A stretch of 52,376 bases of DNA from Lachnospiraceae bacterium (GTDB lineage: Bacteria; Bacillota; Clostridia; Lachnospirales; Lachnospiraceae). The position numbers and the translations under genes are program-made. This document shows positions 38,186 through 51,623 of this stretch, one piece after another (position 1 is the first letter of the stretch; the number at the start of each line of letters is the position of its first letter). The notes below the pieces were generated by a model. The model ran no database searches. It had not been told where the DNA came from and saw only the letters and a list, made by a program, of their open reading frames with translations. The stretch lies in NCBI GenBank assembly GCA_017551665.1, contig JAFZLB010000108.1, positions 1-52,376 on the forward strand, read 5' to 3'.

Positions 38186-40114
38186 ATGAACAAGTCCCTG
38201 ACAAAAACACTGAGCGCCATGGTGGAGCGCGCCCTGCCGAAGGAATACACTTCCGTTTCCTACGCGATCATGATCGACGGGGAAATTGTCTGTGCGGACG
38301 CCTTGGGATACCGCAATCTGCGGCAGGAGAAAAAGGAAAAGCAGAAGGCGAAAGGCAAACAGCAGGAAGAGAAAAAAGAGAAGGCGACGCTGCGCATGAC
38401 CTATAACGTGGCTTCCGTTTCCAAGATTTACATGACGGTGGCGGTGATGCAGCTTGTCGAGCAGGGCCTGCTGTCGTTGGATACGCCGGTCTGCCGCTAT
38501 CTGCCGCGCTTTGTGATGCCGCTGGACAACCGCTACAAAAAGATTACGCTGCGGCACTGTCTCACGCATACGAGCGGCCTGCCGGGGACACAGTGGCGGG
38601 GCTTTTCCGTTTCGGACGCGGAAGGGGAAACCTACGAGGACGACGTTTACGACTATCTGTCCAAGAGTACGCTGAAGGCGGCACCGGGCAGTTATTCCGT
38701 GTACTGCAACGACGGCTTTACGCTGGCGGAGTTTGTCGTGGCGGAGGTCAGCGGCATGCCCTTTGCGGAATACTGCAAGAAGTACATCACGGAGCCGATC
38801 GGGGCGCATTCCACCAGAATGGCCGGAACCTACAACCGGGCGTATCCGATGATTTCGGAAAAGGACAAACCCGCGGAGGAACTCTTAATTCGCGGCGGTG
38901 CCGGCATTACGACGAACATGATCGATCTTTGCAAATTCGGCGACCGGTTTCTGACAAAGAGTCCGCTGCTCACGGAAAAGAGCAAGCGGGAGATGCAGAA
39001 GCGGCAGGGCAAAACCTTTTTGAAAAACGATACGCGCGCGGCGCTCTACGGCCTCGGCTGGGACCAGGTGTCCTACACGGATCCGGACATGGATCTTGGC
39101 AGCCATGTGCTGTTCAAGGGCGGCAACAGCTTCCAGTTTGACACACAGTTTTTTGTGCTGCCCGACTACAACGCGGTGCTGGCCATGAGCGAAACGCATG
39201 ACTGCCGGCTGGATCTGAACCGGATGCTGCTTCGGCTCTTTGCCGTTGTGATGATGGAGCGCGGCGTCAACATTTATTACGATTACAAGCGGGTGCCGGC
39301 GGATACGCGCCGCCGCTATGAGGGCATCTATCTCATTCCGAGCGGACGGCTGCGCTTTTCCGCGGAGGGCGCGACGGCGGACATCGTCTACGAAAACAGC
39401 AGGGGAGAGCGGGAGCGCGTCTACAAGGATCTGTGGTGGGACGGCAAATGCTTTCACGGCGAAAAGGACCAGGAATTCTTTTTGGAAGCGCAGGGAAAGG
39501 ACCTGTTTTTACTGCAACGCTTCCGGGGAAGGGTCTTTGGCGAGGCGATGAAGGCGCGGCATTTCCCCGCGGGCGGGAAGGCCTGGAAGGAACGCGTCGG
39601 AAAGGATTATATCGTCTGCAACACGGACGCGACGGATTATGTGATTCACGAGCTGATGAGCGGTGTGCGGATCAGCTCGCTCAAGGGGGCGCGGGGCGTG
39701 TATGTGCTGTCCTTTGCGGGGAAGGCGGAGAGCGGTGTCTACGGCTATTTTGACGCGCCGGTCCGCGCGGTGTCCGCAGAGCGCGGCAGGGGCTTTTTGC
39801 GCACGCCGGACAATCCGGGCAGGGACCTGATGGATCCCGTGTTTTCCAAACAGGGCAAAACGGAATATCTGGAAGCGGCGTCCTACCGTTACCGCGAGGC
39901 GTCTTCGCTTCCGATCTGGAAGGGACAGCCCTTTCCGAAACGCAGGCGCGCGAACGGCGTTTACCGTATCAAGAGCAGGTTGAAACGTCTGCCGCGCATC
40001 CCGAAGGGCTGCCGCGTCATGGTGCTGAATGAGGAAATGGTCTGTGAATATGATTCTCTGTTCCCCGGGAAGTACCAGCCCGTGGAAAAGGGATATATTC
40101 TGCTGATCCGTTAA
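38186..40114 (+). CDS. Serine beta-lactamase-like hydrolase (class C / penicillin-binding family)
   Basis: A 642-residue protein whose first ~350 residues are a serine beta-lactamase-family domain: the nucleophile motif SVSK near residues 78-81, YCN near residue 174 and KGG near 311 in place of the usual KTG. A lysine/glutamate/glutamine-rich insertion (residues about 48-69) separates the first two strands. The C-terminal ~290 residues are beta-rich and unassigned. There is no signal peptide, so it probably acts inside the cell, for example on imported peptides or D-amino esters; that is an inference from its place at the end of the opp operon. ATG 38186 has AAGGGG seven nt upstream; ATG 38180 is an alternative. 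Its stop overlaps that of the convergent regulator. Confidence 0.82.
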   Translation: MNKSLTKTLSAMVERALPKEYTSVSYAIMIDGEIVCADALGYRNLRQEKKEKQKAKGKQQEEKKEKATLRMTYNVASVSKIYMTVAVMQLVEQGLLSLDTPVCRYLPRFVMPLDNRYKKITLRHCLTHTSGLPGTQWRGFSVSDAEGETYEDDVYDYLSKSTLKAAPGSYSVYCNDGFTLAEFVVAEVSGMPFAEYCKKYITEPIGAHSTRMAGTYNRAYPMISEKDKPAEELLIRGGAGITTNMIDLCKFGDRFLTKSPLLTEKSKREMQKRQGKTFLKNDTRAALYGLGWDQVSYTDPDMDLGSHVLFKGGNSFQFDTQFFVLPDYNAVLAMSETHDCRLDLNRMLLRLFAVVMMERGVNIYYDYKRVPADTRRRYEGIYLIPSGRLRFSAEGATADIVYENSRGERERVYKDLWWDGKCFHGEKDQEFFLEAQGKDLFLLQRFRGRVFGEAMKARHFPAGGKAWKERVGKDYIVCNTDATDYVIHELMSGVRISSLKGARGVYVLSFAGKAESGVYGYFDAPVRAVSAERGRGFLRTPDNPGRDLMDPVFSKQGKTEYLEAASYRYREASSLPIWKGQPFPKRRRANGVYRIKSRLKRLPRIPKGCRVMVLNEEMVCEYDSLFPGKYQPVEKGYILLIR

Positions 40115-41130
40115 GAGAGCAGTCCCGCGGCGAGTGCCTCGTCCGTGATCAGGACGTTGATGAGTCCCGCGCGCAGTGCGCCGCGCACGGAGGACTGCTT
40201 GTACGCGCCGCAGGCGACACCGATCGTCATCTTATTCGCGCGGATGTCCGCGAAGGGCATGCCGATGCATTTCTCGTTCCATTCGCAGGAAAGATAATTC
40301 CCCTGAATGTCATAATACTGTGCGCAGACGCTGCCGACGGCGCCTTTTTCGTTCAGCTCGCGCATCATGTCGTCCGTCAGGTATTCCCGGAAGGCACCGC
40401 GTCTGGCGGCCTTCGGAATCTGCTTGAAGCCGCCGATGCCCGTGAGCAGGATGTCGCATTCGCGCATCCGGTCAAAGACGGCGGAGACGGAGGGTTCCTG
40501 CAAGAGACGTTCCTTCGCGTAACTGTCTTCCATGAAAATCGGCGTGTTGAGAAAGTAGCTGCGTCCGCCGGGGAAGATGCCGGAGATCCGCGTGACGAGC
40601 TCCCTGGACTCCACATCCTGATAGGTGTTGGAGCCGGAGCCGATGATCTGCACGGTGTCCAGCTCACAGGGGTGAATGCGGTGCAGCTTGCCGGTGATTT
40701 TGTTGACGGCGTTGCCGTTGGAAACGCCGAGCGTTTTTTTGCCGCGCAGCAGATCGGAAACATAGACGGAGGCGAAGTCCGTCACGGTTTCCAGCGCCTG
40801 CTCGTAGTCCTCGTCCCCGAAGGAGCTGATGACGATCGCGTCCTTCAGGCCGAAGGCTTCCGTCAGCTGCTTTTCGATTTCACGCAGACGGTCGACGATG
40901 CGGCGGACGCGGATTTCGACGACGCCCTTTTCTCTTGCCGCGGCCAGCAGCCGGGACACCTTGGCGGCAGAAAAGGAGAGTGAGGCCGCGATTTCCGCCA
41001 CCTTCATGCCGCGCGTGTAATACATGTCCGCCACGAGAGAATACAGGGCGTATTCGGAGAGCAGCGGCGCGTCCTGCCCCAGCTGTACGCGTGTCAGCTC
41101 CGCTTGTTCCCGTTGCAGTTCTTCCATCAT
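40111..41130 (-). CDS. SorC-family sugar-responsive transcriptional regulator
   Basis: A 339-residue SorC/DeoR-type regulator. An N-terminal helix-turn-helix (residues about 25-60: ALYSLVADMYYTRGMKVAEIAASLSFSAAKVSRLLAAAREKG) is followed by the PF04198 sugar-phosphate-binding domain (KTLGVSNGNAVNKI, VQIIGSG, LLTGIGGF, IGVACGAYK). Effectors of this family are phosphorylated sugars. Start at 41130 overlaps the kinase stop by ATGA, so both come from one mRNA. It probably controls the divergent transporter/ula operon and its own operon through palindromes at 42664 and 42772. It ends in a TTAA shared with the facing hydrolase gene. Confidence 0.9.
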   Translation of the reverse strand: MMEELQREQAELTRVQLGQDAPLLSEYALYSLVADMYYTRGMKVAEIAASLSFSAAKVSRLLAAAREKGVVEIRVRRIVDRLREIEKQLTEAFGLKDAIVISSFGDEDYEQALETVTDFASVYVSDLLRGKKTLGVSNGNAVNKITGKLHRIHPCELDTVQIIGSGSNTYQDVESRELVTRISGIFPGGRSYFLNTPIFMEDSYAKERLLQEPSVSAVFDRMRECDILLTGIGGFKQIPKAARRGAFREYLTDDMMRELNEKGAVGSVCAQYYDIQGNYLSCEWNEKCIGMPFADIRANKMTIGVACGAYKQSSVRGALRAGLINVLITDEALAAGLLS

Positions 41131-42605
41131 CCCGTTCCTCCGGGAAGTGCATGATAAACCTCTTCCGTTTCCGTAAGCAGGGCGTCGTACAGTGCGCGAT
41201 TGGCGGCGTCCGGCGTGAAGCGTTTGTGCGGCGCGTTTCCGCGGACTGCGGCGAAGGCGCTTTTCTCGTCGGGATACCATCCGCAGGTGACGGCGGCGCT
41301 CAAGAAAGCGCCGAGGGCGGTGGCTTCGCCGTCGTCATAGCGGACAAGCTCCTTGCCGGACATGTCCGCAAGAATCTGCGCGAAGAGATCGCTCTTTGTC
41401 ATGCCGCCGCCAAGCGAAGCGACAGGCGCGGAGGAAAGCGAAGCCGGCAGTGCGCGGATGCTTTTTGTAATCTCCGCGGCAATCCCTTCCAGCAGGGCGC
41501 GTGCAAGATGGGCACGCGTATGCGTCAGATTTAAGGAAGTAAAGGAAGCGCGTGCCGCCGGATTCCAGTCTCTTGTGCCGCAGCCCTGGAACATCGGGAC
41601 ACAGCGCACCCCGCAGGCGCCGGGCGGAACGGAGGCCGCCAGCGCGTTGAAGGCCGCAAGATCGGGACATCCGTCGCAACGCAGATCGGGCAAGAGCTCC
41701 CGCAAAAACCAGTCCAGTGCCGCAGCGGAGGAAAGGATGTTGGATTCCAGAATGTATTTGCCCCGCACGGCTGCCACGTTGCAGATCATGGCGGGAGAGG
41801 TCAGCAGCGGTTCGTCGCATTGTCCGATGACAAAGGAGCCGGTACCGCAGTTGATGACAAGGGAAGAAGCGTCCAGCGCACCGAGGCCGAGCGCGCCGCA
41901 TTGCTGGTCACCGCCGGCGGTGATGACGGGGATGCCCTCCGGCAGTCCGCTTTCCTTCGCGAAGGAAGGCAGGACATGTCCGTAGACGGAGCCCTGCGGA
42001 ATCAGATCCGCAAGGATGTCTTCCGGAAGCGAAAACAGTGCACAGAGTTCGCTGTCCCAGGCGCAGTCTTTGATGTGCATCAGGGAAGTCCGGCTGCCGT
42101 AGGTGTAATCCGTATGAAATTCGCCGGTCATCCGGCACATGAGATAGTCCGGGACGATCAGCGCCTTATGGGCTTTTTCGAAGAGCGCGGGTGTCTCCTC
42201 TTTGAACCAGGTGATCTTCGAGGCGGTGAAGACGGCGTTGATGCCCGCGCCTGTTTTTTGGAAGACGGCGTCGTTTTGTGCAAGCAGCCGTTCGCAGATG
42301 GCGCGGTTGCGCGTGTCCTGCCACATGATGAAATTGGTCAGCGCCTTTCCGTCCCGGTCCACGAGTGCCGGCGCGGAGCGGAAGGCGGTCAGCACCAGGG
42401 CCGCCGGCTGCGCGTGTTTCGTCAGACTGCGGATGATTTGTAAGAGTGCGTCGTCAAAGGTCTCCGCGCTTTGTTCAATGAAGTCCCCGTGTTTGACCAG
42501 CGGTGTGGCGACGCTTTCCGTGGCAAGCGGCTGTCCCGCTTCATCATAAAGAATGCCGCGCATGCTTGTCGTGCCGACGTCAATGCTCAGAATCTGTCCT
42601 GTCAT
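41127..42605 (-). CDS. FGGY-family sugar kinase
   Basis: A 492-residue kinase of the FGGY family (xylulokinase, lyxose/L-xylulose kinase and relatives). The N-lobe phosphate loop SIDVGTTSMRGILYD starts at about residue 7, MWQDTRN near 88 is a family marker, the catalytic-Asp segment AGGDQQCGALGLG is near 253 and the C-lobe ASLGGGMTKSDLFAQILAD is near 420. The substrate is not readable. Its divergent neighbours, an ABC importer and ula lactonase/epimerases, suggest L-ascorbate or a keto-L-gulonate/L-xylulose-type compound. ATG 42605 has GGGGG upstream; the open frame further upstream is A/T-rich promoter DNA. Confidence 0.9.
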   Translation of the reverse strand: MTGQILSIDVGTTSMRGILYDEAGQPLATESVATPLVKHGDFIEQSAETFDDALLQIIRSLTKHAQPAALVLTAFRSAPALVDRDGKALTNFIMWQDTRNRAICERLLAQNDAVFQKTGAGINAVFTASKITWFKEETPALFEKAHKALIVPDYLMCRMTGEFHTDYTYGSRTSLMHIKDCAWDSELCALFSLPEDILADLIPQGSVYGHVLPSFAKESGLPEGIPVITAGGDQQCGALGLGALDASSLVINCGTGSFVIGQCDEPLLTSPAMICNVAAVRGKYILESNILSSAAALDWFLRELLPDLRCDGCPDLAAFNALAASVPPGACGVRCVPMFQGCGTRDWNPAARASFTSLNLTHTRAHLARALLEGIAAEITKSIRALPASLSSAPVASLGGGMTKSDLFAQILADMSGKELVRYDDGEATALGAFLSAAVTCGWYPDEKSAFAAVRGNAPHKRFTPDAANRALYDALLTETEEVYHALPGGTG

Positions 42606-42629
42606 GGCCCTGTGTCCCCCTTTTGTTCC

Positions 42630-42658
42630 ACAGTAACACGGCAGGAAAAAGAAGTCAA
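42630..42658 (-). promoter_or_regulatory. Promoter of kinase-regulator operon
   Basis: On the minus strand TTGACT (42658-42653), a 17-nt spacer and an extended -10, TGT-TACTGT, ending at 42630, about 25 nt before the kinase ATG. A 16-bp palindrome lies five nt upstream of the -35. Confidence 0.6.
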
Positions 42659-42663
42659 TACGA

Positions 42664-42679
42664 ATGAAAATATTTTCAT
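42664..42679. promoter_or_regulatory. Perfect 16-bp palindrome, probable SorC operator
   Basis: ATGAAAAT followed by its exact complement ATTTTCAT. It lies just upstream of the minus-strand -35. A near copy sits in the matching place for the plus-strand promoter, so it is probably a regulator site. The sequence resembles but does not match a catabolite (cre) site, since the central CG is missing. Confidence 0.65.
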
Positions 42680-42771
42680 CCAAAATCGTAAGAAATGCAC
42701 AGATAGAACAGTAAAAACTGTGAAAAACTGACAAAAAGATAGAAACAGATACTGTTTTCAAAGAAAAATCG

Positions 42772-42785
42772 TGAAAATATTTGCA
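42772..42785. promoter_or_regulatory. Second copy of the operator palindrome
   Basis: TGAAAATATTTGCA matches the palindrome at 42664 in 13 of 14 positions (G for T in the right half). It ends seven nt before the plus-strand -35 box. Confidence 0.6.
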
Positions 42786-42792
42786 AAAGCAC

Positions 42793-42822
42793 TTGACATT
42801 CGCGGCGGGGCGGGCGTACAAT
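42793..42822 (+). promoter_or_regulatory. Sigma-A-type promoter of sugar importer / ula operon
   Basis: TTGACA at 42793-42798, an 18-nt spacer and TACAAT at 42817-42822. The consensus -35 is exact. The leader of about 55 nt carries GGGAGG at 42871-42876. Confidence 0.75.
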
Positions 42823-42883
42823 GATGACCGTGGGGGGATTCATTCCCAAAACTGCAACAATCTTACATGAGGGAGGTATCAAC

Positions 42884-43960
42884 ATGAAACTGAAAAGACT
42901 CATCAGTGTTATGACGGCAGCGGTTCTCGCGTTTTCCGTGGTGTCCTGCGGTGCCGCAAATCAGCAGAATTCCGGCGGCGGCGGCTCCCAGGCGCCCGCT
43001 GAGACTTCGACGGCTGCACCTTCGGGCGGCGAGACAGCCTCCGGCGGCATCGGCTTCAAGGAAGGCGGCAAGAATCCGTACACGGATCCGCTGAAGATCG
43101 CCTGGATTCCGACGGCTGCTTCCGAAGCGAACGGCACGGCATGGGGCAAGGGCATCGCACAGGAGCTGGAGTACTGGTCGAATGTGGAGTTCAATATCTT
43201 CGACGGCGAGAAGAGCGCGGAGAAGCAGACCGAGATCATCGCGGACCTGATCGCGCAGGGCTATGACGGCATCGTCCTTCAGGCATGGAACTCCGACGCC
43301 TGCGCACAGGCGGTCAAGGACGCGGAAGCGGCGGGCATCCCCGTGGTCTGCATCAACATTGACGTCAATACACCGCACGCGGGTCTGGTGGCCATGACGG
43401 ACGTCGAGGCCGGCTATGCCATCGGCGAGCGCATCGCTGCGGATCTCGGCGGCGAAGGCAATGTCGTGATCATCGAAGCAACCCCGGGCGCGGCGCGCGG
43501 CGAAAACCTGCAGACCGGCTTCAAGCAGGCCATGGAAAATCACCCGGGCATCAACATCCTGGATTCCCAGACGGCGGAGTGGAACATGGAAAAGGCCAAC
43601 ACGCTGATGCAGAACTACCTGACGACGCACGGCGATCAGATCAACGCGGTGTTCGCACACAATGACCAGATGGCGGAAGGCGCGGGCGAAGCCTGCAAGA
43701 ACGCGGGTCGCGACGACATCATGATCTGGGGCGCGAACGGCGAGACGAAGGCGCTGGAATACATCGAAGACGGCACGATCACCGGCACGGTCTACACGAA
43801 CTGCTACAACCAGGGCGCGACGGCGGCACGTCTGCTGATGATGTACATCGGCTCCAACATCGACACCTCTTCCTTCTCCAAGACCCCTGTCATCAAGATG
43901 CCTCCGATGACGGTGGACAAGGACAACGTGGGCAGCATTACGCCGGATATGAGGTGGTAA
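42884..43960 (+). CDS. Sugar ABC transporter substrate-binding lipoprotein (RbsB-like)
   Basis: A 358-residue periplasmic-binding-protein type 1 lipoprotein (Peripla_BP_4). The signal peptide ends at a lipobox VVSC with Cys near residue 22, followed by a Gly/Ser/Pro linker to about residue 55. The binding domain shows WIPTAASEANGTAWGKGIAQELE, IVLQAWNSDACAQAVKDA, VVCINIDVNTPHAG and FAHNDQMAEGAGEA, as in ribose/galactose-type proteins. It should capture the sugar handled by the downstream ula enzymes. ATG 42884 follows a strong GGGAGG. A hairpin/terminator-like region after the stop probably boosts its level relative to the permeases. Confidence 0.94.
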   Translation: MKLKRLISVMTAAVLAFSVVSCGAANQQNSGGGGSQAPAETSTAAPSGGETASGGIGFKEGGKNPYTDPLKIAWIPTAASEANGTAWGKGIAQELEYWSNVEFNIFDGEKSAEKQTEIIADLIAQGYDGIVLQAWNSDACAQAVKDAEAAGIPVVCINIDVNTPHAGLVAMTDVEAGYAIGERIAADLGGEGNVVIIEATPGAARGENLQTGFKQAMENHPGINILDSQTAEWNMEKANTLMQNYLTTHGDQINAVFAHNDQMAEGAGEACKNAGRDDIMIWGANGETKALEYIEDGTITGTVYTNCYNQGATAARLLMMYIGSNIDTSSFSKTPVIKMPPMTVDKDNVGSITPDMRW

Positions 43961-43977
43961 GTTCGTATCGCGATAAG

Positions 43978-44102
43978 GCATGCATCGAACGGGCGGCGCA
44001 TGCTTGCATGTGACCGCCTGTTTCGATATATGCCGCGCGCAGCGAGCGAGGAATCGCGAAGCGATTTCGAGCCGGCGCGATGCGCAGGCAATCCGGCTTT
44101 TT
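43978..44102 (+). promoter_or_regulatory. Intercistronic hairpins and leaky terminator after binding-protein gene
   Basis: This 174-bp gap holds three structures. First is a long imperfect hairpin (43978-43996 with 44014-44033) enclosing CATGC-TT-GCATG. Second is AATCGC-GAA-GCGATT at 44052-44066. Third is a terminator-like stem AGCCGG (44070-44075) with CCGGCT (44093-44098) followed by five T, with an inner GCGC-GAT-GCGC. Together they should reduce transcription into the permease genes and stabilise the binding-protein message. The middle part may be a dispersed palindromic repeat. Confidence 0.6.
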
Positions 44103-44134
44103 ACTAAAAACTCAGCTTATGCGAGGAAGCGCTT

Positions 44135-45151
44135 ATGAGACAAGAAACCTTACGACGCTTTATTTCCTTCGGTCTGCTGCTGTTGCTGGTCATCATCTTT
44201 TCCGCCACGACAGATTCCTTCCTGACCTGGGGAAATATCAACACACTGCTCAGGGAATGCTCCGTCATCGGGATTCTGGCCATCGGTGTCACGATGGCGA
44301 TCATCACCGGCGGCAATGATCTTTCCTGCGGACATCTGATGGGAACGGTCTGTATGCTCTTTTCCTTCCTGTATTACTATACGGGGATGTCCCTGATCAT
44401 GATCCTTTTGATTTCCCTGCTGATGGCACTTGCGGGCGGACTCTTAAACGGCTTTTCCGTCGCGGTGCTGCAGATTCCGGACTTCATTGCGACGCTGTCC
44501 AGCCAGTTCATCTTTGCGGGTCTGACGTATATTTTCGCCATCCGCAACGAGTACGGCTCGATCACGCAGACGCAGATCAACAACCCGACGATCACCGCGC
44601 TGGGCGGGCAGATCGGAAGCAGCGGTCCTTATTATGTGACGATCGCCTTCTTTGTGCTCGCGGCCGTCGCCCAGTTTTTCTTAAAGAAAACAAAGCGGGG
44701 CACGTACATTTACGCAATCGGCGCGAACCGCAAATCCGCGGAATACTCCGGTGTGAGCTTTGTCAAAACCAAGGTGACGGCCTTTGTGATCTCCGGCCTC
44801 TGCGCCTTTATCGCGGCGATGTTTACGCTGGGCAGACTGCATACCTCGGAGGTCGCGACGGGACAGACCTTTGCGTTGCAGGCGATTTCCGCCTCCGTCA
44901 TCGGCGGCGCTGCCTTCACCGGCGGCCGCGGCGATATGGTCGGCACGACGATCGGCGTGCTGTTCATGCAGGTGCTCCGGAACGGGATGCGCAAGTACGG
45001 CTTTACGACGCAGGTGGTCGCGGTGGTCTCCGGTATCGTCATCGTTATGGTGCTGGTCTTTGACGTATATTATAACGAGTTCATGCAGAAACGCATCAAG
45101 AGAGCGGCCGCTGCGGCGCGCGAAAAGAAGGCGGTGAGTGCGAATGGCTGA
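44135..45151 (+). CDS. Sugar ABC transporter permease (RbsC-like)
   Basis: A 338-residue BPD_transp_2-type permease with eight to ten hydrophobic segments. The family motif near the start, ILAIGVTMAIITGGNDLSCGHLMG (residues about 46-69), and IYAIGANRKSAEYSGV before VISGLCAFIAAMFTLGR are typical of ribose/xylose permeases. The C-terminus is basic. It probably pairs with the second permease at 46664 as a heterodimer, since only one ATPase gene is present. GAGGAAG precedes the ATG. The ATPase gene overlaps its end by 8 nt. Confidence 0.92.
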   Translation: MRQETLRRFISFGLLLLLVIIFSATTDSFLTWGNINTLLRECSVIGILAIGVTMAIITGGNDLSCGHLMGTVCMLFSFLYYYTGMSLIMILLISLLMALAGGLLNGFSVAVLQIPDFIATLSSQFIFAGLTYIFAIRNEYGSITQTQINNPTITALGGQIGSSGPYYVTIAFFVLAAVAQFFLKKTKRGTYIYAIGANRKSAEYSGVSFVKTKVTAFVISGLCAFIAAMFTLGRLHTSEVATGQTFALQAISASVIGGAAFTGGRGDMVGTTIGVLFMQVLRNGMRKYGFTTQVVAVVSGIVIVMVLVFDVYYNEFMQKRIKRAAAAAREKKAVSANG

Positions 45152-46667
45152 AAAAGATTTGTTGTTTGAAATGCGCGAAATCGAAAAAATCTTTGCCCAT
45201 GTGCACGCACTGGATCATGTCAATTTTGACGTGCGCAAGGGCGAAGTCCACGCGCTGCTCGGGGAGAACGGCGCGGGCAAATCCACGCTGATCAAAATCC
45301 TGACCGGCGTTTATCCCAAGGACGGCGGACAGATTTTCCTGGACGGCAGGGAGGTGGAAATCACCTCCAGGGAAAGCGCGGCGGCGCTCGGCATCGCCTG
45401 CATTTTCCAGGAGCTGTCGCTCGTGCCGACGCTGTCCGTGTATCAGAACGTCATGCTCGGCAAAGAGATTTCCAAATTCGGCATTGTCCGGGCGTCCGCG
45501 GAACGCAGGCAGATCCAGGATCTGATCGATCACTACGGCTTTCCCGTGGGGGCCAATGACATCGTGGAAACGCTGTCCGTGGCGCAGATGCAGATGGTCG
45601 AAATCTTAAAGGCGCTCGCGACGGACGCGCGTCTCATCATCATGGATGAGCCGACGGCGTCGCTGTCTTCGAGAGAGTCGGAGCTGCTGTATAAGATCAT
45701 TCACCAGCTGCGGGAGAAGGGCGTTTCCATCATTTACATTTCCCACCGCCTCGAGGAAGTCTTCAATCTGTCCGACCGCATCACCATTCTGCGCGACGGT
45801 AAGAACGCAGGCGTTGTGGAAAAGGAAAATATCGTGCCCTCCGAGATCATCAAAATGATGATCGGCAAGGAGGTCAGCGAGGCCACGGCCTCCCGCGAAC
45901 TGAAGACCTCTTCGGCGGAGCCGGTGCTGACGCTGAAAAATCTGACGAGACTCGGTGCGTATAACGACGTGTCCTTTGAGGTGAAGCGCGGCGAGGTGGT
46001 CGTGCTGACGGGGCTTGTGGGCAGCGGCCGCACGGAAATCGTCCGCACGGTCTACGGTGCGGATCCCTATGACTCCGGCGAGATTCTTCTGGAGGGCAGT
46101 CCCTACAGCCCGAAGATCGGCAGGAGTGTGGCGACGGGCTTCGGCCTGATTCCCGAGGACAGAAGAACGCAGGGCTTTTCGCCGCTGCTGTCCGTGACGG
46201 GCAACGTCGCCGTGACAAATTACGACAAGCTGTCCAAGAAGGGCTTTGTCAACCGCGCGGATGAGGACGCGCTCGGGCACCGTGCGGTGGAGCTTGTGGA
46301 CTTACGTCCGCCGAATCCGAACGTGCAGGTCGGGAATCTGTCCGGCGGCAACCAGCAAAAGGCCGTGCTCGGCAAGTGGCTGACGCGTGACCTCAAGGTC
46401 ATGCTGATTGACGAGCCGACGGTCGGCATTGATATCGGCGCGAAGGATGAGATCTATGAGATCATTGAACGCCTGTCCAACGAAGGCGTGGCGGTGCTCA
46501 TGGTTTCCTCGGATATCGCCGAGGTGCTGCGCGTCGCGCACCGCATTCTCGTGATGCGCGGCGGCAGAATCACAAAAGAATTCAACAGCGGTGTCGCGAC
46601 GCAGGAGGATATTCTCATGGCCTCTTCCGGCTTCACCGGTGAGGAAGGAAAGGAGGATGCGGCATGA
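45144..46667 (+). CDS. Sugar ABC transporter ATP-binding protein (RbsA-like, two ABC domains)
   Basis: A 507-residue tandem ATPase. Domain one has Walker A LLGENGAGKSTLIK near residues 38-50 and Walker B LIIMDEPTASL. Its signature motif is degenerate (ETLSVAQMQMVEILKAL), as usual in RbsA/MglA. Domain two has the typical altered Walker A TGLVGSGRTEIV near residues 288-299, signature LSGGNQQKAVLGKWL and Walker B VMLIDEPTVGID. It powers import with both permeases. ATG 45144 is preferred over GTG 45138. It overlaps the next gene by ATGA. Confidence 0.95.
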   Translation: MAEKDLLFEMREIEKIFAHVHALDHVNFDVRKGEVHALLGENGAGKSTLIKILTGVYPKDGGQIFLDGREVEITSRESAAALGIACIFQELSLVPTLSVYQNVMLGKEISKFGIVRASAERRQIQDLIDHYGFPVGANDIVETLSVAQMQMVEILKALATDARLIIMDEPTASLSSRESELLYKIIHQLREKGVSIIYISHRLEEVFNLSDRITILRDGKNAGVVEKENIVPSEIIKMMIGKEVSEATASRELKTSSAEPVLTLKNLTRLGAYNDVSFEVKRGEVVVLTGLVGSGRTEIVRTVYGADPYDSGEILLEGSPYSPKIGRSVATGFGLIPEDRRTQGFSPLLSVTGNVAVTNYDKLSKKGFVNRADEDALGHRAVELVDLRPPNPNVQVGNLSGGNQQKAVLGKWLTRDLKVMLIDEPTVGIDIGAKDEIYEIIERLSNEGVAVLMVSSDIAEVLRVAHRILVMRGGRITKEFNSGVATQEDILMASSGFTGEEGKEDAA

Positions 46668-47701
46668 AAGAGAAAAGCGGAACGAACGCGGCGGCAGGCG
46701 TAAAGAAGCTCCTGGCGAACAGCCGCATCATTGTGCTGATTGTTCTCGTGGCCTTTTTGTCCCTGACCACGAAGGGAAAATTCTTCACCTACGGGAACGT
46801 CGTCAGCATCCTGTATTCGATTTCCCTGACGGGCATCATGATCTGCGGCGCAACCTTTGCCGTGCTGCTCGGCGGCATCGACCGTACGGTCTCCGGAAAC
46901 GCAGCGGTCTGCGGTGCGATGGCGGCGACGGTCGTGCTGGCCTTCGGACAGTCCAACGGCGGTGCGCTTGTCGCGCTGCTGGCGGGTCTTGCCTGCGGCA
47001 TTGTCAGCGGCTTCTTCCACGGCCTGGTGCTGTCGCGCTTCGCGATCCCGGCCTTTCTGCTGACGCTTGCGACGAACGAGGTGCTGTACGGCATCGTGCA
47101 GTTCATCACGGGCAACCAGCTGATCAACGTGATGCGCTGCGACCTGATGAACTGGATCGGCGAAAGCCGTCTGCTCGGGATTCCGATTCCCGTTTATATC
47201 CTTGCGGTCTGCTTTGTGGTCTGCTACTTTGTGCTGAACCACACGGTCTACGGGCGTTACGTCTACGCGACCGGCGGCAACCGCCAGGCCTCGGAGCTTT
47301 CCGGCATCCCGACGCGGCGCGTCATCATCATCGCCTATACGATTTCCGGCTTTATGGGCGCGCTGTCCGGCTTTGTCATGAGCTGTATGAACAAGCAGGC
47401 CTCGGCCTCGCAGGCGCAGGGTTATGAAAACGACGTGCTGGCGGCCATCGTCATCGGCGGCGTCTCCATGCGCGGCGGTTCGGGCTCTTTGCAGGGCGCG
47501 ATGCTCGGCGCAGTGCTGATCGGCGTTATCACGAACGGTCTGCAGCTGTTGGGCGTTCCCTCGATTTATCACAACCTGGTCAAGGGCGTGATCATCATCG
47601 TCGCGATCGCCTGGGATATGCTGTCCGCCGCGCGGAAATCCGGCACGGCGACGAATCCCTTTGCGGGGCTGTTCAAGAGCAAGAAAAAAGTTACGGCATA
47701 A
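46664..47701 (+). CDS. Second sugar ABC transporter permease (RbsC-like)
   Basis: A 345-residue BPD_transp_2-type permease with about eight to ten hydrophobic segments and the motif GIMICGATFAVLLGGIDRTVSGNAAVCG near residues 44-71. RYVYATGGNRQASELSGIPTRR is the coupling-helix region. It differs clearly from the permease at 44135, so the pair likely forms a heterodimeric channel around the single double-ATPase. ATGA overlap with the ATPase gene. The lactonase gene follows after 14 nt. Confidence 0.92.
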   Translation: MKEKSGTNAAAGVKKLLANSRIIVLIVLVAFLSLTTKGKFFTYGNVVSILYSISLTGIMICGATFAVLLGGIDRTVSGNAAVCGAMAATVVLAFGQSNGGALVALLAGLACGIVSGFFHGLVLSRFAIPAFLLTLATNEVLYGIVQFITGNQLINVMRCDLMNWIGESRLLGIPIPVYILAVCFVVCYFVLNHTVYGRYVYATGGNRQASELSGIPTRRVIIIAYTISGFMGALSGFVMSCMNKQASASQAQGYENDVLAAIVIGGVSMRGGSGSLQGAMLGAVLIGVITNGLQLLGVPSIYHNLVKGVIIIVAIAWDMLSAARKSGTATNPFAGLFKSKKKVTA

Positions 47702-47715
47702 ACAGGAGGTAATAT

Positions 47716-48819
47716 ATGAGCACCATATCCGAAATGACAAGAGACAAGTGGATTGAAAAGACCTTCCCCGAATGGGGCACCTGGCTGGTGGAAGAGATTG
47801 AGCAGACGAAGGTGCCGAAGGGCAACGTCAGCATGTGGTGGCTGGGCTGCACCGGCATCTGGATGAAGACACCGAAGGGGACGAACCTGACGGTGGATTT
47901 CTGGAACGGCAACGGCAAGCGCACGCACGGCGACGGCAAGATGGCCCCCGGTCACCAGATGGCCAACATGGGCGGTGTGCGCAAGATGCAGCCCAATCTG
48001 CGCAACGTGCCCTTTGTCGCTGACCCCTTCGCCTTCAAGCATGTGGACGCGGTGCTGGCGACGCACTATCATCAGGATCACTTAAGCGCGGAATGGGCGG
48101 CGCATGTCATCAATTCCAAAATGATGACGACGGACGCGAAGGGAAAGAAGATTCCCGTGCCCTTCATCGGGCCGCTGAAGGCTGCGGAAATCTGGATGAA
48201 GTGGGGCGTGCCGAAGAACCGGATTAAGATCGTCAAGCCCGGTGATAAGATTAAGGTCGGCGAGATCGAGATCATCTGCCTGGATTCCTTTGACCGCACC
48301 TGTCTGGTCACGACGGATTCCACCGGTCCCGACCGCGAGGAGCTGACCGGGAAATGCCCGGACAACATGGACGAGAAGGCCGTGAACTATCTGTTCAAGA
48401 CACCGGGCGGCAACATTTATCATTCCGGGGATTCGCATTTCTCGACCTACTTCGCGAAGCACGGCAAGGATCACAAGGTGGACGTCGCCTTCGGTGCCTT
48501 CGGGGAAAACCCGGTCGGCATCCAGGACAAGATGACCTCCGTTGACATTCTGCGCATGGCGGAGAGCCTGCGCTGCAAGGTCGTTATCCCGATTCACCAC
48601 GATGTCTGGTCCAATTTCCAGGCGGACACCGAAGAGATCCGTCTGCTCTGGGAGTTCAAGAAACCGCGTAATCTCTACACCTTTACGCCCTTCTTCTGGC
48701 AGGTCGGCGGACGCTACACCTATCCGCAGGACAAGGAGATCATGTACTATCATCATCCGCGCGGCTTTGAGGACTGCTTTGAGCATCCGTCGAATATACC
48801 GTTCCGCTCGCTGATGTAA
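47716..48819 (+). CDS. ulaG: L-ascorbate-6-phosphate lactonase
   Basis: A 367-residue metallo-beta-lactamase-fold lactonase closely resembling E. coli UlaG along its whole length, including [14 protein letters not shown] at the start, [38 protein letters not shown] and the C-terminal [13 protein letters not shown]. The metal motif is THYHQDH near residues 115-121 (HxHxDH), with further ligands in YHSGDSHFS and [15 protein letters not shown]. It opens the lactone of L-ascorbate-6-phosphate to 3-keto-L-gulonate-6-phosphate. AGGAGG precedes the ATG. It is the first enzyme gene after the importer. Recognition is strong; the exact substrate here is inferred. Confidence 0.95.
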
Positions 48820-48876
48820 GCAACAGCGGAGCTGCGTCAGCCCGGGGTTGATTCACAAGACAGAGGCGAGGAATAT

Positions 48877-49725
48877 ATGAACAGACAATACAAACTTGGC
48901 ATGTACGAAAAGGCGGTTCCGAAGGAGCTGTCCTGGAAGGAGAAATTCGAGGCCGCGAAGACGGCGGGCTTTGATTTCATCGAGCTCTCGGTGGACGAGA
49001 CGGACGAGAAGCTGGCGCGGCTTTGCTGGACGCAGGAGGAGCGCCGCGATCTCTTACGCATCGCGGAAGACTGCGGCATGCCCTTACGTTCCATGTGTCT
49101 TTCCGGGCACCGCAAGTATCCCATCGGCAGCGCCGACAAGGCAACACGCGAGCGCGGCATGGAGATTATGGAGCAGGCCCTGGCTTTGGCCGCGGATCTC
49201 GGCATCCGCATGATACAGCTGGCCGGCTACGACGTCTACTACGAAGACTCCACGGAAGAGACGCGCGCGCTCTTTGAGAAAAACCTGCACATCGCGACGG
49301 AGCTGGCGGCGCGCTACGGCGTCATCATGGGCTTTGAGACCATGGAAACGCCCTTCATGAACACCGTGGAGAAGGCCATGTCCTTCGTGGACATGGTGAA
49401 CCTCCCCTACCTTCAGGTCTATCCGGACCTCGGCAACATCACGAACGCGGCTGTGGAGTACGGCACGCGCGTCGCGGATGACCTCGAGACGGGCCGCGGG
49501 CATCTCATCGCGATGCACCTGAAGGAAACCGTCCCCGGCGTCTTCCGCGAAGTGCCCTTCGGCACCGGGCATGTGGACTTCGACGCGGGCATTCGCAAGG
49601 CGTGGATGCTGGGCGTGCGGCGCTTCGTCACGGAGTTCTGGTATACCGGGGAGTCGAACTGGCGCGAGATTGCGGCGGAGGCCTGTGCGATGATGAGGGG
49701 GAAATTGGATGTTTTGTGCAAATAA
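48877..49725 (+). CDS. ulaE: L-xylulose-5-phosphate 3-epimerase (UlaE/SgbU type)
   Basis: A 282-residue TIM-barrel epimerase of the xylose-isomerase-like superfamily, converting L-xylulose-5-phosphate to L-ribulose-5-phosphate. Metal ligands are visible: Glu in MGFETMETPF near residue 151, Asp in YPDLGNITNA near 188, His in MHLKET near 213 and Glu in FVTEFWY near 251. Length and N-terminus (LGMYEKAVPKELSWKEKFEAAK) match UlaE. GAGG precedes the ATG. The following gene overlaps its end by 17 nt. Confidence 0.93.
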   Translation: MNRQYKLGMYEKAVPKELSWKEKFEAAKTAGFDFIELSVDETDEKLARLCWTQEERRDLLRIAEDCGMPLRSMCLSGHRKYPIGSADKATRERGMEIMEQALALAADLGIRMIQLAGYDVYYEDSTEETRALFEKNLHIATELAARYGVIMGFETMETPFMNTVEKAMSFVDMVNLPYLQVYPDLGNITNAAVEYGTRVADDLETGRGHLIAMHLKETVPGVFREVPFGTGHVDFDAGIRKAWMLGVRRFVTEFWYTGESNWREIAAEACAMMRGKLDVLCK

Positions 49726-50887
49726 AAAAGTAATAGGTCAGTTGACAAAATGTTACAGTGTTGCCAAGATTAGCGACGGTGGGGAGAGTAAGCTGCTCTG
49801 TGCGGCGGAGAAGCAGGATCCCTGTTACATGTTTCATGTGGACGGGGAGAAGGTGGATACGCTGTGGGAAGGCCCGGGCGGGGTGATGACGCTGGAGCAG
49901 TTTCCCTGCGAGGATGAGACGGTCGTGATGGCGACGCGGAAGTTTTATTCGCCGAATGATTCCGCGGACGCGAAGATTGTGTATTATACGCGGGACGGCG
50001 GCGGTTGGAAGGAGCGGGTGCTCTGTGATCTGCCCTTTGTGCATCGCTTCGGTCTGTTGCAAAGGGGCGGCAGGCGGTATCTGATTGCCTGCACCTTAAA
50101 GAGTGATCACGCGTTTAAGAACGACTGGAGCTGTCCCGGGCGCGTCTGGGTGGCGGAGTTGTCCGGGGATATCCGGGAGTACAGCGCGGAGCAACAGCTT
50201 GCGTTGACGCCGCTCGTCAGCGGCTTGTATCATAATCACGGCTTCGCGAAGGTGACGGAAGAGGACGGCACGGTCTGGGCGCTGGTCGGCACGGACAAGG
50301 GTGTGCTGAAGGTGGTTCCGCCGGCGGAAGCGGAGGGTGCATGGGAGACGGAGCTGCTCCTTGCGGAAGCGACCTCTGACATGCTCTATGAGGATTTTGA
50401 CGGCGACGGCAAACGGGAGCTGCTGGTGATGGCACCCTTCCACGGCGAAAAGCTCGCGGTCTTTCATGAGGCCGGAGAGGGTCTTGCGGCACCGGTCTTC
50501 GGGGACGCGCCCGTCACGGAGGTGACCCCCGGCGTACAGGGCGTAAAGGTGCTGACAGCCGACGGCGCAAAGGAGATCAGCGCGTCGTCCAAGCGCTTTG
50601 AAAAGGTCTGGCAGTATCCGGAGGACATGCCCTTTCTCCACGCGATTTACACCGCCGGGGTTGCGGGAAAGAAGCTTGCGATTGTCGGTGCGCGGGAAGG
50701 GAAGAAGGAGCTGCTGGCGCTGTATTATGACAGTGAGACAAAAAGTTATGTGACCGATGTTTTGGACGAGGGAGCCGGCCCGGCGAACGCGCTGTTCTTT
50801 ACGGAGGACGGCAGGGACATGGTGCTGGCCGCCAACCGCGAGACGGACGAAATCGCGCTGTATGAGATCACAATGAAGGAGAACTGA
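49709..50887 (+). CDS. Cytosolic propeller-like protein of unknown function in the ula operon
   Basis: A 392-residue protein without signal peptide or membrane segment. It is beta-rich with repeated strand patterns ending in hydrophobic Val/Leu-Val/Met, and one segment, YEDFDGDGKRELLVMAPF near residues 228-245, is an FG-GAP/calcium-loop type motif. A six- or seven-bladed propeller is likely; HNHGFAKVTEEDGTVWALVGTDKG is a second blade-like unit. I recognise no enzyme family. It overlaps ulaE by 17 nt and ends 2 nt before ulaF, so it belongs to the operon. It could be a sugar-binding or lactone-handling enzyme, or replace the missing step. Confidence 0.75.
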   Translation: MFCANKKVIGQLTKCYSVAKISDGGESKLLCAAEKQDPCYMFHVDGEKVDTLWEGPGGVMTLEQFPCEDETVVMATRKFYSPNDSADAKIVYYTRDGGGWKERVLCDLPFVHRFGLLQRGGRRYLIACTLKSDHAFKNDWSCPGRVWVAELSGDIREYSAEQQLALTPLVSGLYHNHGFAKVTEEDGTVWALVGTDKGVLKVVPPAEAEGAWETELLLAEATSDMLYEDFDGDGKRELLVMAPFHGEKLAVFHEAGEGLAAPVFGDAPVTEVTPGVQGVKVLTADGAKEISASSKRFEKVWQYPEDMPFLHAIYTAGVAGKKLAIVGAREGKKELLALYYDSETKSYVTDVLDEGAGPANALFFTEDGRDMVLAANRETDEIALYEITMKEN

Positions 50888-50889
50888 CG

Positions 50890-51585
50890 ATGCTCGAAGA
50901 ATTAAAGCAACGTGTTTATGAAGCGAATATGCTTTTGCCGCGTTACGGCCTGGTGACATTTACCTGGGGGAACGCCTCCGAAATTGACCGGGAGAGCGGC
51001 ATTTTCGCGATCAAGCCCTCCGGCGTGGATTATGAGAAATTACGACCGGAGGATATGGTGCTGGTCGATCTGGAGGGGAAGGTGGTCGAGGGAGAGTTGA
51101 ACCCGTCCTCCGACACCGCGACCCATGTCGAGCTCTTCAAGTCCTTTCCGGACATCGGCGGCGTTGTGCATACACATTCCTCTTACGCGACGAGCTGGGC
51201 GCAGTCCGGGCGGGACATTCCCTGCTACGGCACGACGCATGCGGATTATTATTACGGCCCCGTGCCCTGTCTGCGCGTGCTGACGAAGGAGGAACTGGAC
51301 GAGGGCTATGAGAAGAACACGGGCGTGCTCATCGTGAAGGAATTTGAGCGGCAGTCCATTGACCATACGGCGGTGACGGCCTGTCTTTGCAAGAACCACG
51401 GGCCCTTCTGCTGGGGGAAGAGCGCGACGGACGCCGTGCACGGCGCGGTTGTCCTGGAGGAAGTCGCGAAGATGGCTTACCGGACGGAGCTGATCAATAG
51501 TAAAGTCGAACCGGCTCCGCAGTATTTGCAGGACAAGCATTACTTCCGCAAACACGGCAAGGACGCGTATTACGGACAGAAATAA
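50890..51585 (+). CDS. ulaF: L-ribulose-5-phosphate 4-epimerase (UlaF/AraD type)
   Basis: A 231-residue class II aldolase-fold epimerase converting L-ribulose-5-phosphate to D-xylulose-5-phosphate, which enters the pentose phosphate pathway. Motifs: FTWGNASEIDRESG near residues 20-33, the zinc-binding HTHSSYATSWAQSG (two His near 95 and 97), the TTHADYYYG acidic loop and the third His in CKNHGPFCWGKS near 171. Length fits the AraD/UlaF/SgbE group. It starts 2 nt after the propeller gene and ends before a strong terminator. Confidence 0.95.
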   Translation: MLEELKQRVYEANMLLPRYGLVTFTWGNASEIDRESGIFAIKPSGVDYEKLRPEDMVLVDLEGKVVEGELNPSSDTATHVELFKSFPDIGGVVHTHSSYATSWAQSGRDIPCYGTTHADYYYGPVPCLRVLTKEELDEGYEKNTGVLIVKEFERQSIDHTAVTACLCKNHGPFCWGKSATDAVHGAVVLEEVAKMAYRTELINSKVEPAPQYLQDKHYFRKHGKDAYYGQK

Positions 51586-51590
51586 GAAAA

Positions 51591-51623
51591 CGCCCCACTG
51601 CGGACAGCGGGGCGCTTTTTTTT
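51591..51623. terminator. Strong terminator after ulaF, likely bidirectional
   Basis: CGCCCC-A-CTG pairs with CAG-C-GGGGCG (51591-51614, loop CGGA) and is followed by eight T at 51616-51623. The A-rich sequence on the left side gives a T-tail for the facing PepSY gene as well. Confidence 0.9.

Follow-up and report, generated by a model that had tools for sequence, protein, structure and literature searches.

A ula locus with an ABC importer, a sugar kinase and a predicted propeller protein in the probable place of the decarboxylase UlaD

Fermentation of vitamin C is usually read off the gene set of Escherichia coli, in which the phosphotransferase system (PTS) UlaABC, the lactonase UlaG, the decarboxylase UlaD, the epimerases UlaE and UlaF and the regulator UlaR make up the ula pathway. 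UlaD is a protein of about 215 residues with a TIM (triose-phosphate isomerase) barrel fold. In the E. coli yia/LyxK route an FGGY kinase likewise accompanies UlaE/UlaF-like epimerases, but that kinase acts on keto-gulonate/L-xylulose and the UlaD homologue SgbH is present. The substrate of E. coli UlaD is 3-keto-L-gulonate 6-phosphate, at the step between UlaG and UlaE (PMC3219644, in the part available), and ulaD pseudogenes occur in two Erysipelothrix strains, for which the available part of the source reports no replacement (PMC7873064). Here we describe a ula locus from a Lachnospiraceae bacterium (GenBank assembly GCA_017551665.1, contig JAFZLB010000108.1; "the window" is the whole stretch of 52,376 nucleotides). 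It shares UlaG, UlaE, UlaF and, in all likelihood, the intermediates after ascorbate 6-phosphate with E. coli, but has an ATP-binding cassette (ABC) importer and an FGGY kinase where E. coli has UlaABC, a protein that we call P9 where it has UlaD, and a SorC-type regulator beside the kinase where it has UlaR.

We consider it probable that this locus is an L-ascorbate catabolic operon with two substitutions relative to E. coli ula, the importer and kinase serving uptake and P9 serving decarboxylation. The importer would bring free ascorbate into the cell, where the divergent kinase would phosphorylate it at O6, standing in for the UlaABC phosphotransferase system. UlaG would then open ascorbate 6-phosphate to 3-keto-L-gulonate 6-phosphate, P9 would remove the carboxyl group to give L-xylulose 5-phosphate in place of the TIM-barrel UlaD, and UlaE and UlaF would convert the pentulose phosphate to D-xylulose 5-phosphate. 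The ula pathway found here is a variant not previously described, and P9, if confirmed, would be a new enzyme family; a search of the openly licensed literature, which misses most subscription papers, returned no report of an ascorbate kinase, a UlaD substitute or a propeller decarboxylase.

An initial annotation of the window had described a ribose-type importer (a lipoprotein, two permeases and a double ATPase), a very close UlaG homologue followed by UlaE and UlaF, and a divergent FGGY kinase with a SorC regulator. Family assignments agree with each of these, while its gene list omitted the open reading frame (ORF) of P9 between ulaE and ulaF. The features of the locus are as follows.

40111..41130 (likely extent; ORF 40111..41280), minus strand: SorC/DeoR-type sugar-responsive regulator; PF04198 (Sugar-bind domain), 191 bits
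41127..42605, minus strand: FGGY carbohydrate kinase of 492 residues, proposed L-ascorbate 6-kinase; PF00370/PF02782
42793..42822, plus strand: promoter-like site TTGACA-18-TACAAT upstream of the lipoprotein gene; 11 of 12 consensus bases, a consensus match only
42884..43960, plus strand: substrate-binding lipoprotein of a ribose-type ABC importer; PF13407 (Peripla_BP_4), lipobox VVSC (by eye)
44135..45151, plus strand: ABC permease 1; PF02653
45138..46667, plus strand: double ATPase; two ABC_tran stretches
46664..47701, plus strand: ABC permease 2; PF02653
47716..48819, plus strand: UlaG, L-ascorbate-6-phosphate lactonase; NF008688, 589.5 bits (cut-off 306), UlaG equivalog passed
48877..49725, plus strand: UlaE, L-xylulose/L-ribulose-5-phosphate 3-epimerase; NF009689 and TIGR00542 over cut-off
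49709..50887, plus strand: P9, 392 residues; no Pfam/NCBIfam family at E 0.001
50890..51585, plus strand: UlaF, L-ribulose-5-phosphate 4-epimerase; NF009625, 380.7 bits (cut-off 369)
51587..51618, listed on the minus strand: terminator-like hairpin of 14 pairs directly after ulaF; a consensus match only

The ten genes lie in two divergent units, with the kinase and then the regulator on the minus strand and the importer, the ula genes and P9 on the plus strand. UlaE and UlaF are in the same gene run as UlaG, and the P9 gene is embedded in it, since its first 17 bases are shared with the end of ulaE and its stop lies two bases ahead of ulaF. UlaG is identical to the E. coli protein (2wyl) at 209 of 353 aligned residues (59%).

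As the initial annotation had stated, the window holds no UlaD. In the source genome the sole PF00215 match is PyrF (TIGR02127, 248 bits) and the UlaD model NF009832 has no match; because the genome is 91.4% complete, this absence is not absolute. UlaE and UlaF are nevertheless kept, and their substrate must therefore still be made. The initial annotation had left the decarboxylation either to a gene elsewhere or to another protein. A UlaD hidden elsewhere in the genome was rejected, PyrF alone having been found, and the other half of that proposal stands, the protein very probably being P9. UlaF or UlaE as the decarboxylase was also rejected, as similar proteins occur in UlaD-type loci. The operon likewise holds no UlaABC, the rest of the genome not having been searched for it.

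Across genomes, P9 tracks UlaG and excludes UlaD. In the window's class, P9 and UlaG (over its curated cut-off) are each found in 13 of 391 genomes, and the 13 are identical; judged by the E. coli gene set, all of these would look pathway-broken, without UlaD. A second class, to which the Erysipelotrichaceae genome G483 belongs, has UlaG in 19 of 346 genomes and P9 in 15, with 14 shared; in the fifteenth P9 genome (G778) the P9 gene belongs to a ula operon in which undetermined bases break the UlaG reading. Class names are inferred from the nearest named relatives (for the window's class L032, Lachnospiraceae), and the P9 and UlaG searches in each class are taken, from equal numbers and handles, as covering the same genomes. 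In the 13 genomes of the window's class and in five more of the order (G061, G073, G091, G094, G097), P9 occurs and UlaD has no match; G081 is the reverse case, with UlaD at 307 bits and P9 absent. The 19 second-class genomes with UlaG divide into 14 with P9 and five with UlaD over cut-off. Over the three draws, 38 genomes with UlaG comprise 32 with P9 and six with UlaD over cut-off, none having both and none having neither; a naive count for this exclusion gives 3.6e-7, ignoring kinship of the genomes. Seven named assemblies with P9 (goat, sheep, yak and 'RUG' metagenomes; one of them, G483, is also among the 38) carry UlaG in all seven loci and UlaD over cut-off in none, with two matches of about 20 bits. 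Of 60 other species in the genus of the window, none has UlaG over cut-off, so the ula locus is rare there, and its gain by transfer is possible.

The exchange is also visible in gene order. Locus genes were called by a greedy longest-ORF rule, which picked some wrongly (tblastn was needed to recover the UlaG genes of L035 and L068), and were labelled by best BLAST match among window and neighbour proteins, representatives being checked in Pfam/NCBIfam. UlaD-type operons run ulaA-(HAD)-C-G-B-D-E-F-regulator (L081, L088, L090, L101, L102), whereas L079 runs P9-ulaA-C-G-B-E-F-regulator; L080, a member of the same family as the UlaD-type L081, agrees with L079 in both gene set and gene order. The L079/L080 operon is the UlaD operon minus ulaD plus P9. 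The common P9 type runs ulaG-C-A-B-P9-F-E, and at six loci (L075, L077, L092, L093, L094, L096) the same-strand run, with gaps <250 bases, holds these genes alone. In these minimal operons P9 is therefore the sole gene without a role and decarboxylation the sole step without an enzyme. At L084, UlaG and P9 form a pair that neither ulaE nor ulaF adjoins, as would suit a P9 that acts next to UlaG. At L095 (7884-9812, minus strand) a HAD phosphatase and P9 form a single reading frame of 642 residues. The HAD phosphatase and P9 genes are adjacent at L097 and L074. The Erysipelotrichia-like loci L033 and L034, with ABC-type operons, contain additional genes: one for an esterase separates ulaG from ulaE, and behind ulaF lie those for an acyl-homoserine lactone (AHL)-lactonase-like metallo-hydrolase and a PRK02399-family protein.

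P9 and UlaD thus share a setting in ula operons, mutual exclusion and, if our proposal holds, a reaction, but they differ in size and fold, P9 being a 340-390-residue predicted seven-bladed propeller with no UlaD model match. The window's P9 matches no Pfam or NCBIfam family over cut-off and none at E 0.001, PF00215 and NF009832 included. Neither the P9 profile nor the single members from L079 and L073 gave a useful match in sequence searches of the PDB, and the P9 of L073, compared with plasmids, had none. The AlphaFold model of P9 is a confident seven-bladed propeller, and, for two divergent members, the solved structure with the highest Z is the propeller domain of aldos-2-ulose dehydratase from Phanerochaete (PDB 4a7k, 4a7y, 4a7z), with the same overall seven-bladed fold. 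The dehydratase is a propeller enzyme with a keto-sugar substrate and an active-site metal, a zinc that polarises the keto group. It differs from P9 in being fungal, about 880 residues long, and a catalyst of dehydration and isomerisation, whereas P9 is a single bacterial propeller proposed to decarboxylate.

An alignment of 25 P9 proteins (A1, the window's and 24 others; that of L032 was excluded for its frame breaks) has invariant His112, His177, His245, His311, Glu34, Asp139 and Asn176. The top face of the propeller, told from the bottom by hand from DSSP strands, is His-rich, carries invariant His/Asp/Arg and resembles an active site. Top-face residues among the seven would hold a divalent metal, which would polarise the 3-keto group and stabilise the enediolate left after departure of CO2. 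By crude proportion alone, His112 falls close to the proposed catalytic His155 of the dehydratase. Blade 5 has a DxDxDG...E loop (D229, D231, D233, E237) in common with VCBS/FG-GAP propellers, whose families PF13517 and PF01839 weakly match 19 and 15 of the 25 members, respectively, at E up to 1. The best member reaches E 0.00062 and the window's P9 stays under both gathering cut-offs; the invariant His-rich top face also sets P9 apart from these propellers. In the window's P9, blade 5 carries nearly 40 inserted residues (about 258-295), partly of low model confidence and absent in the 24 other aligned members. The N terminus of P9 has no signal-like features by eye, and a secreted lectin or scaffold was rejected for this reason.

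Several observations weigh against P9 as a decarboxylase in the place of UlaD. We know of no beta-propeller decarboxylase. The fold match to the dehydratase propeller is at 12-14% identity, human LGI1 structures outrank the dehydratase by Foldseek E-value in both lists, and no sequence search ties P9 to it. The dehydratase propeller family PF22301 touches one of the 25 P9 members, weakly (E 0.031); it is silent in 299 genomes of the phylum, but the control genomes are silent as well, so that absence cannot be concluded from this. In the closest relative, L032, whose UlaG is 98% identical, P9 (10001-11166) spans two frames, through error or decay. The exclusion is not perfectly strict either: G614 has P9 beside UlaG and, on another contig, a UlaD-like gene of 240 bits (cut-off 250), the P9 genome G717 has a UlaD match of 114 bits with an internal stop codon, and there are a few UlaD matches of 20-24 bits. 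Moreover, the genomes share ancestry, and the decarboxylase label changes just three times on the UlaG tree (46 rows, in which L082 is labelled unknown despite weak PTS-like upstream labels, and L089 is labelled UlaD-type with its UlaD on another contig). Gene content, co-occurrence, mutual exclusion and predicted fold are direct observations, and from them we judge P9 to be very probably a non-orthologous replacement of UlaD; the activities of the kinase and of P9, their substrates and the metal are what we infer from these.

The ula variant with an ABC importer and a kinase is borne out as an arrangement and recurs: an FGGY kinase lies near UlaG in ten of the UlaG loci examined, and an ABC importer is recognised at five of these (the window, L032, L033, L034, L070) and in none of the DNA examined of the other five. 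The importer of L070 is a different, single-permease one, with the kinase more than 3 kilobases off. The window's kinase scores under every listed NCBIfam equivalog cut-off, the best being XylB at 262 bits (cut-off 380), and the ten ula-linked kinases cluster together when compared with three other FGGY kinases, a thin outgroup that is glycerol-kinase-like by reading. On the UlaG tree the kinase label requires four changes among PTS-linked UlaGs, three of them forced by starred branches; kinase-linked UlaGs thus fall at several points within the PTS-linked ones, which means that PTS and kinase have replaced each other more than once. Residues named around the metal site of UlaG, namely His119, Asp121, Asp226 and His228 (PMC3219644, in the part available), are conserved throughout the aligned UlaGs. 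The 31 PTS-type rows, that of E. coli among them, share 88 invariant columns. Kinase-linked rows, of which there are ten, deviate at six of these, namely at position 25 (V in six of ten) and at five others where one or two rows each differ, and no column is kinase-specific. UlaG therefore most likely still sees ascorbate 6-phosphate, which the kinase must then make. The initial annotation had preferred this role for the kinase over one on 3-keto-L-gulonate, and comparison of the UlaG sequences likewise makes an L-ascorbate 6-kinase the likelier of the two.

At two further loci (L072:9511-16619 and L084:3287-11734) UlaG and P9 adjoin a TctABC-type tripartite transporter, Pfam-confirmed for L084, with no kinase recognised in the DNA examined. 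Both UlaGs differ at H80 and P312 from all aligned PTS and kinase types. These loci may represent a third version of ula with an unphosphorylated substrate, which we offer as a lead only.

The same UlaG comparison bears on a different order of steps, in which UlaG opens free ascorbate, the kinase acts later on 3-keto-L-gulonate and P9 still decarboxylates. In the window the kinase gene faces away from UlaG, its product falls below the equivalog cut-offs given above, and FGGY kinases often act on open-chain keto sugars, all of which would suit this order. We nonetheless regard it as unlikely, because the ten kinase-linked UlaGs show no kinase-specific column, and the UlaGs that do differ at H80 and P312 are the two TctABC-linked ones with no kinase recognised nearby. 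Whether the pathway might instead serve another lactone or sugar acid is a related matter. Some ula operons may serve related metabolites (PMC3219644, in the part available), and the solved relatives of the lipoprotein bind other sugars or have no stated ligand. Yet UlaG is over its equivalog cut-off at 59% identity to the E. coli protein and shares nearly all of the 88 invariant columns with PTS-type UlaGs, and the PTS proteins of L083 have ascorbate-type models among their best matches, all below cut-off; a substrate other than L-ascorbate therefore seems quite improbable to us.

For P9 itself, a helper role is conceivable, as a mutarotase, second lactonase, sensor or scaffold, with CO2 lost spontaneously or through another enzyme. 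Decarboxylation of 3-keto acids can proceed without an enzyme. Propellers are often scaffolds (PMC8023676, in the part available). A helper, however, would not vanish whenever UlaD is present, whereas P9 and UlaD over cut-off are mutually exclusive by genome and are swapped in otherwise alike operons; with the active-site-like His/Asp/Arg of its top face in addition, we find a helper role distinctly unlikely. The reaction could also fall to UlaF, whose class II aldolase fold is that of 3-oxo-tetronate 4-phosphate decarboxylases, a kinship reflected in a 51-bit match to NF043034. That decarboxylase model asks 250 bits, while UlaF passes the L-ribulose-5-phosphate 4-epimerase cut-off (381 bits vs 369), and the UlaF proteins of UlaD-type loci (52-59%) are as similar to the window's as those of many P9-type loci, which leaves UlaF a highly improbable decarboxylase.

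We thus retain P9 as the candidate decarboxylase and the kinase as the candidate source of ascorbate 6-phosphate. We also narrowly favour the fuller claim that P9 is a new family, a metal-dependent propeller decarboxylase of 3-keto-L-gulonate 6-phosphate that is independent of UlaD and commoner in the two classes sampled, and that the kinase is the first L-ascorbate 6-kinase, exchanged several times with the ascorbate PTS. If true, a precise reaction can be assigned to a conserved protein of unknown function, a classic pathway has two unrelated answers to a single step, the kinase brings a new activity whose substrate is vitamin C itself, and pathway annotations of genomes from gut and rumen become correctable.

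Some gene boundaries were set by reading. The regulator start at 41130 (MMEEL..., 339 residues) was chosen by hand as in the L032 homologue, which has 339 residues and is 85% identical, and the start codon so chosen overlaps the kinase stop codon by two bases; for the lipoprotein the listed start (42821) was judged too early and 42884 preferred. Over the whole stretch there are 8 promoter-like sites (shuffle mean 4.0) and 14 terminator-like ones (shuffle mean 12.6). Between the lipoprotein gene and permease 1, positions 43955-44140 are G+C-rich and strongly folding (-82.7 kcal/mol, z -4.05, 200 shuffles), and the one part of this stretch tested has no repeat elsewhere in the window. Away from the ula locus, a plus-strand ORF of 946 residues (26173-29013) has no Pfam match at E 0.001, and a single plus-strand ORF at 31-2172 fuses an acyl-CoA dehydrogenase, the FAD-binding domain of electron-transfer flavoprotein alpha (ETF-alpha) and a rubredoxin in an electron-transfer fusion.

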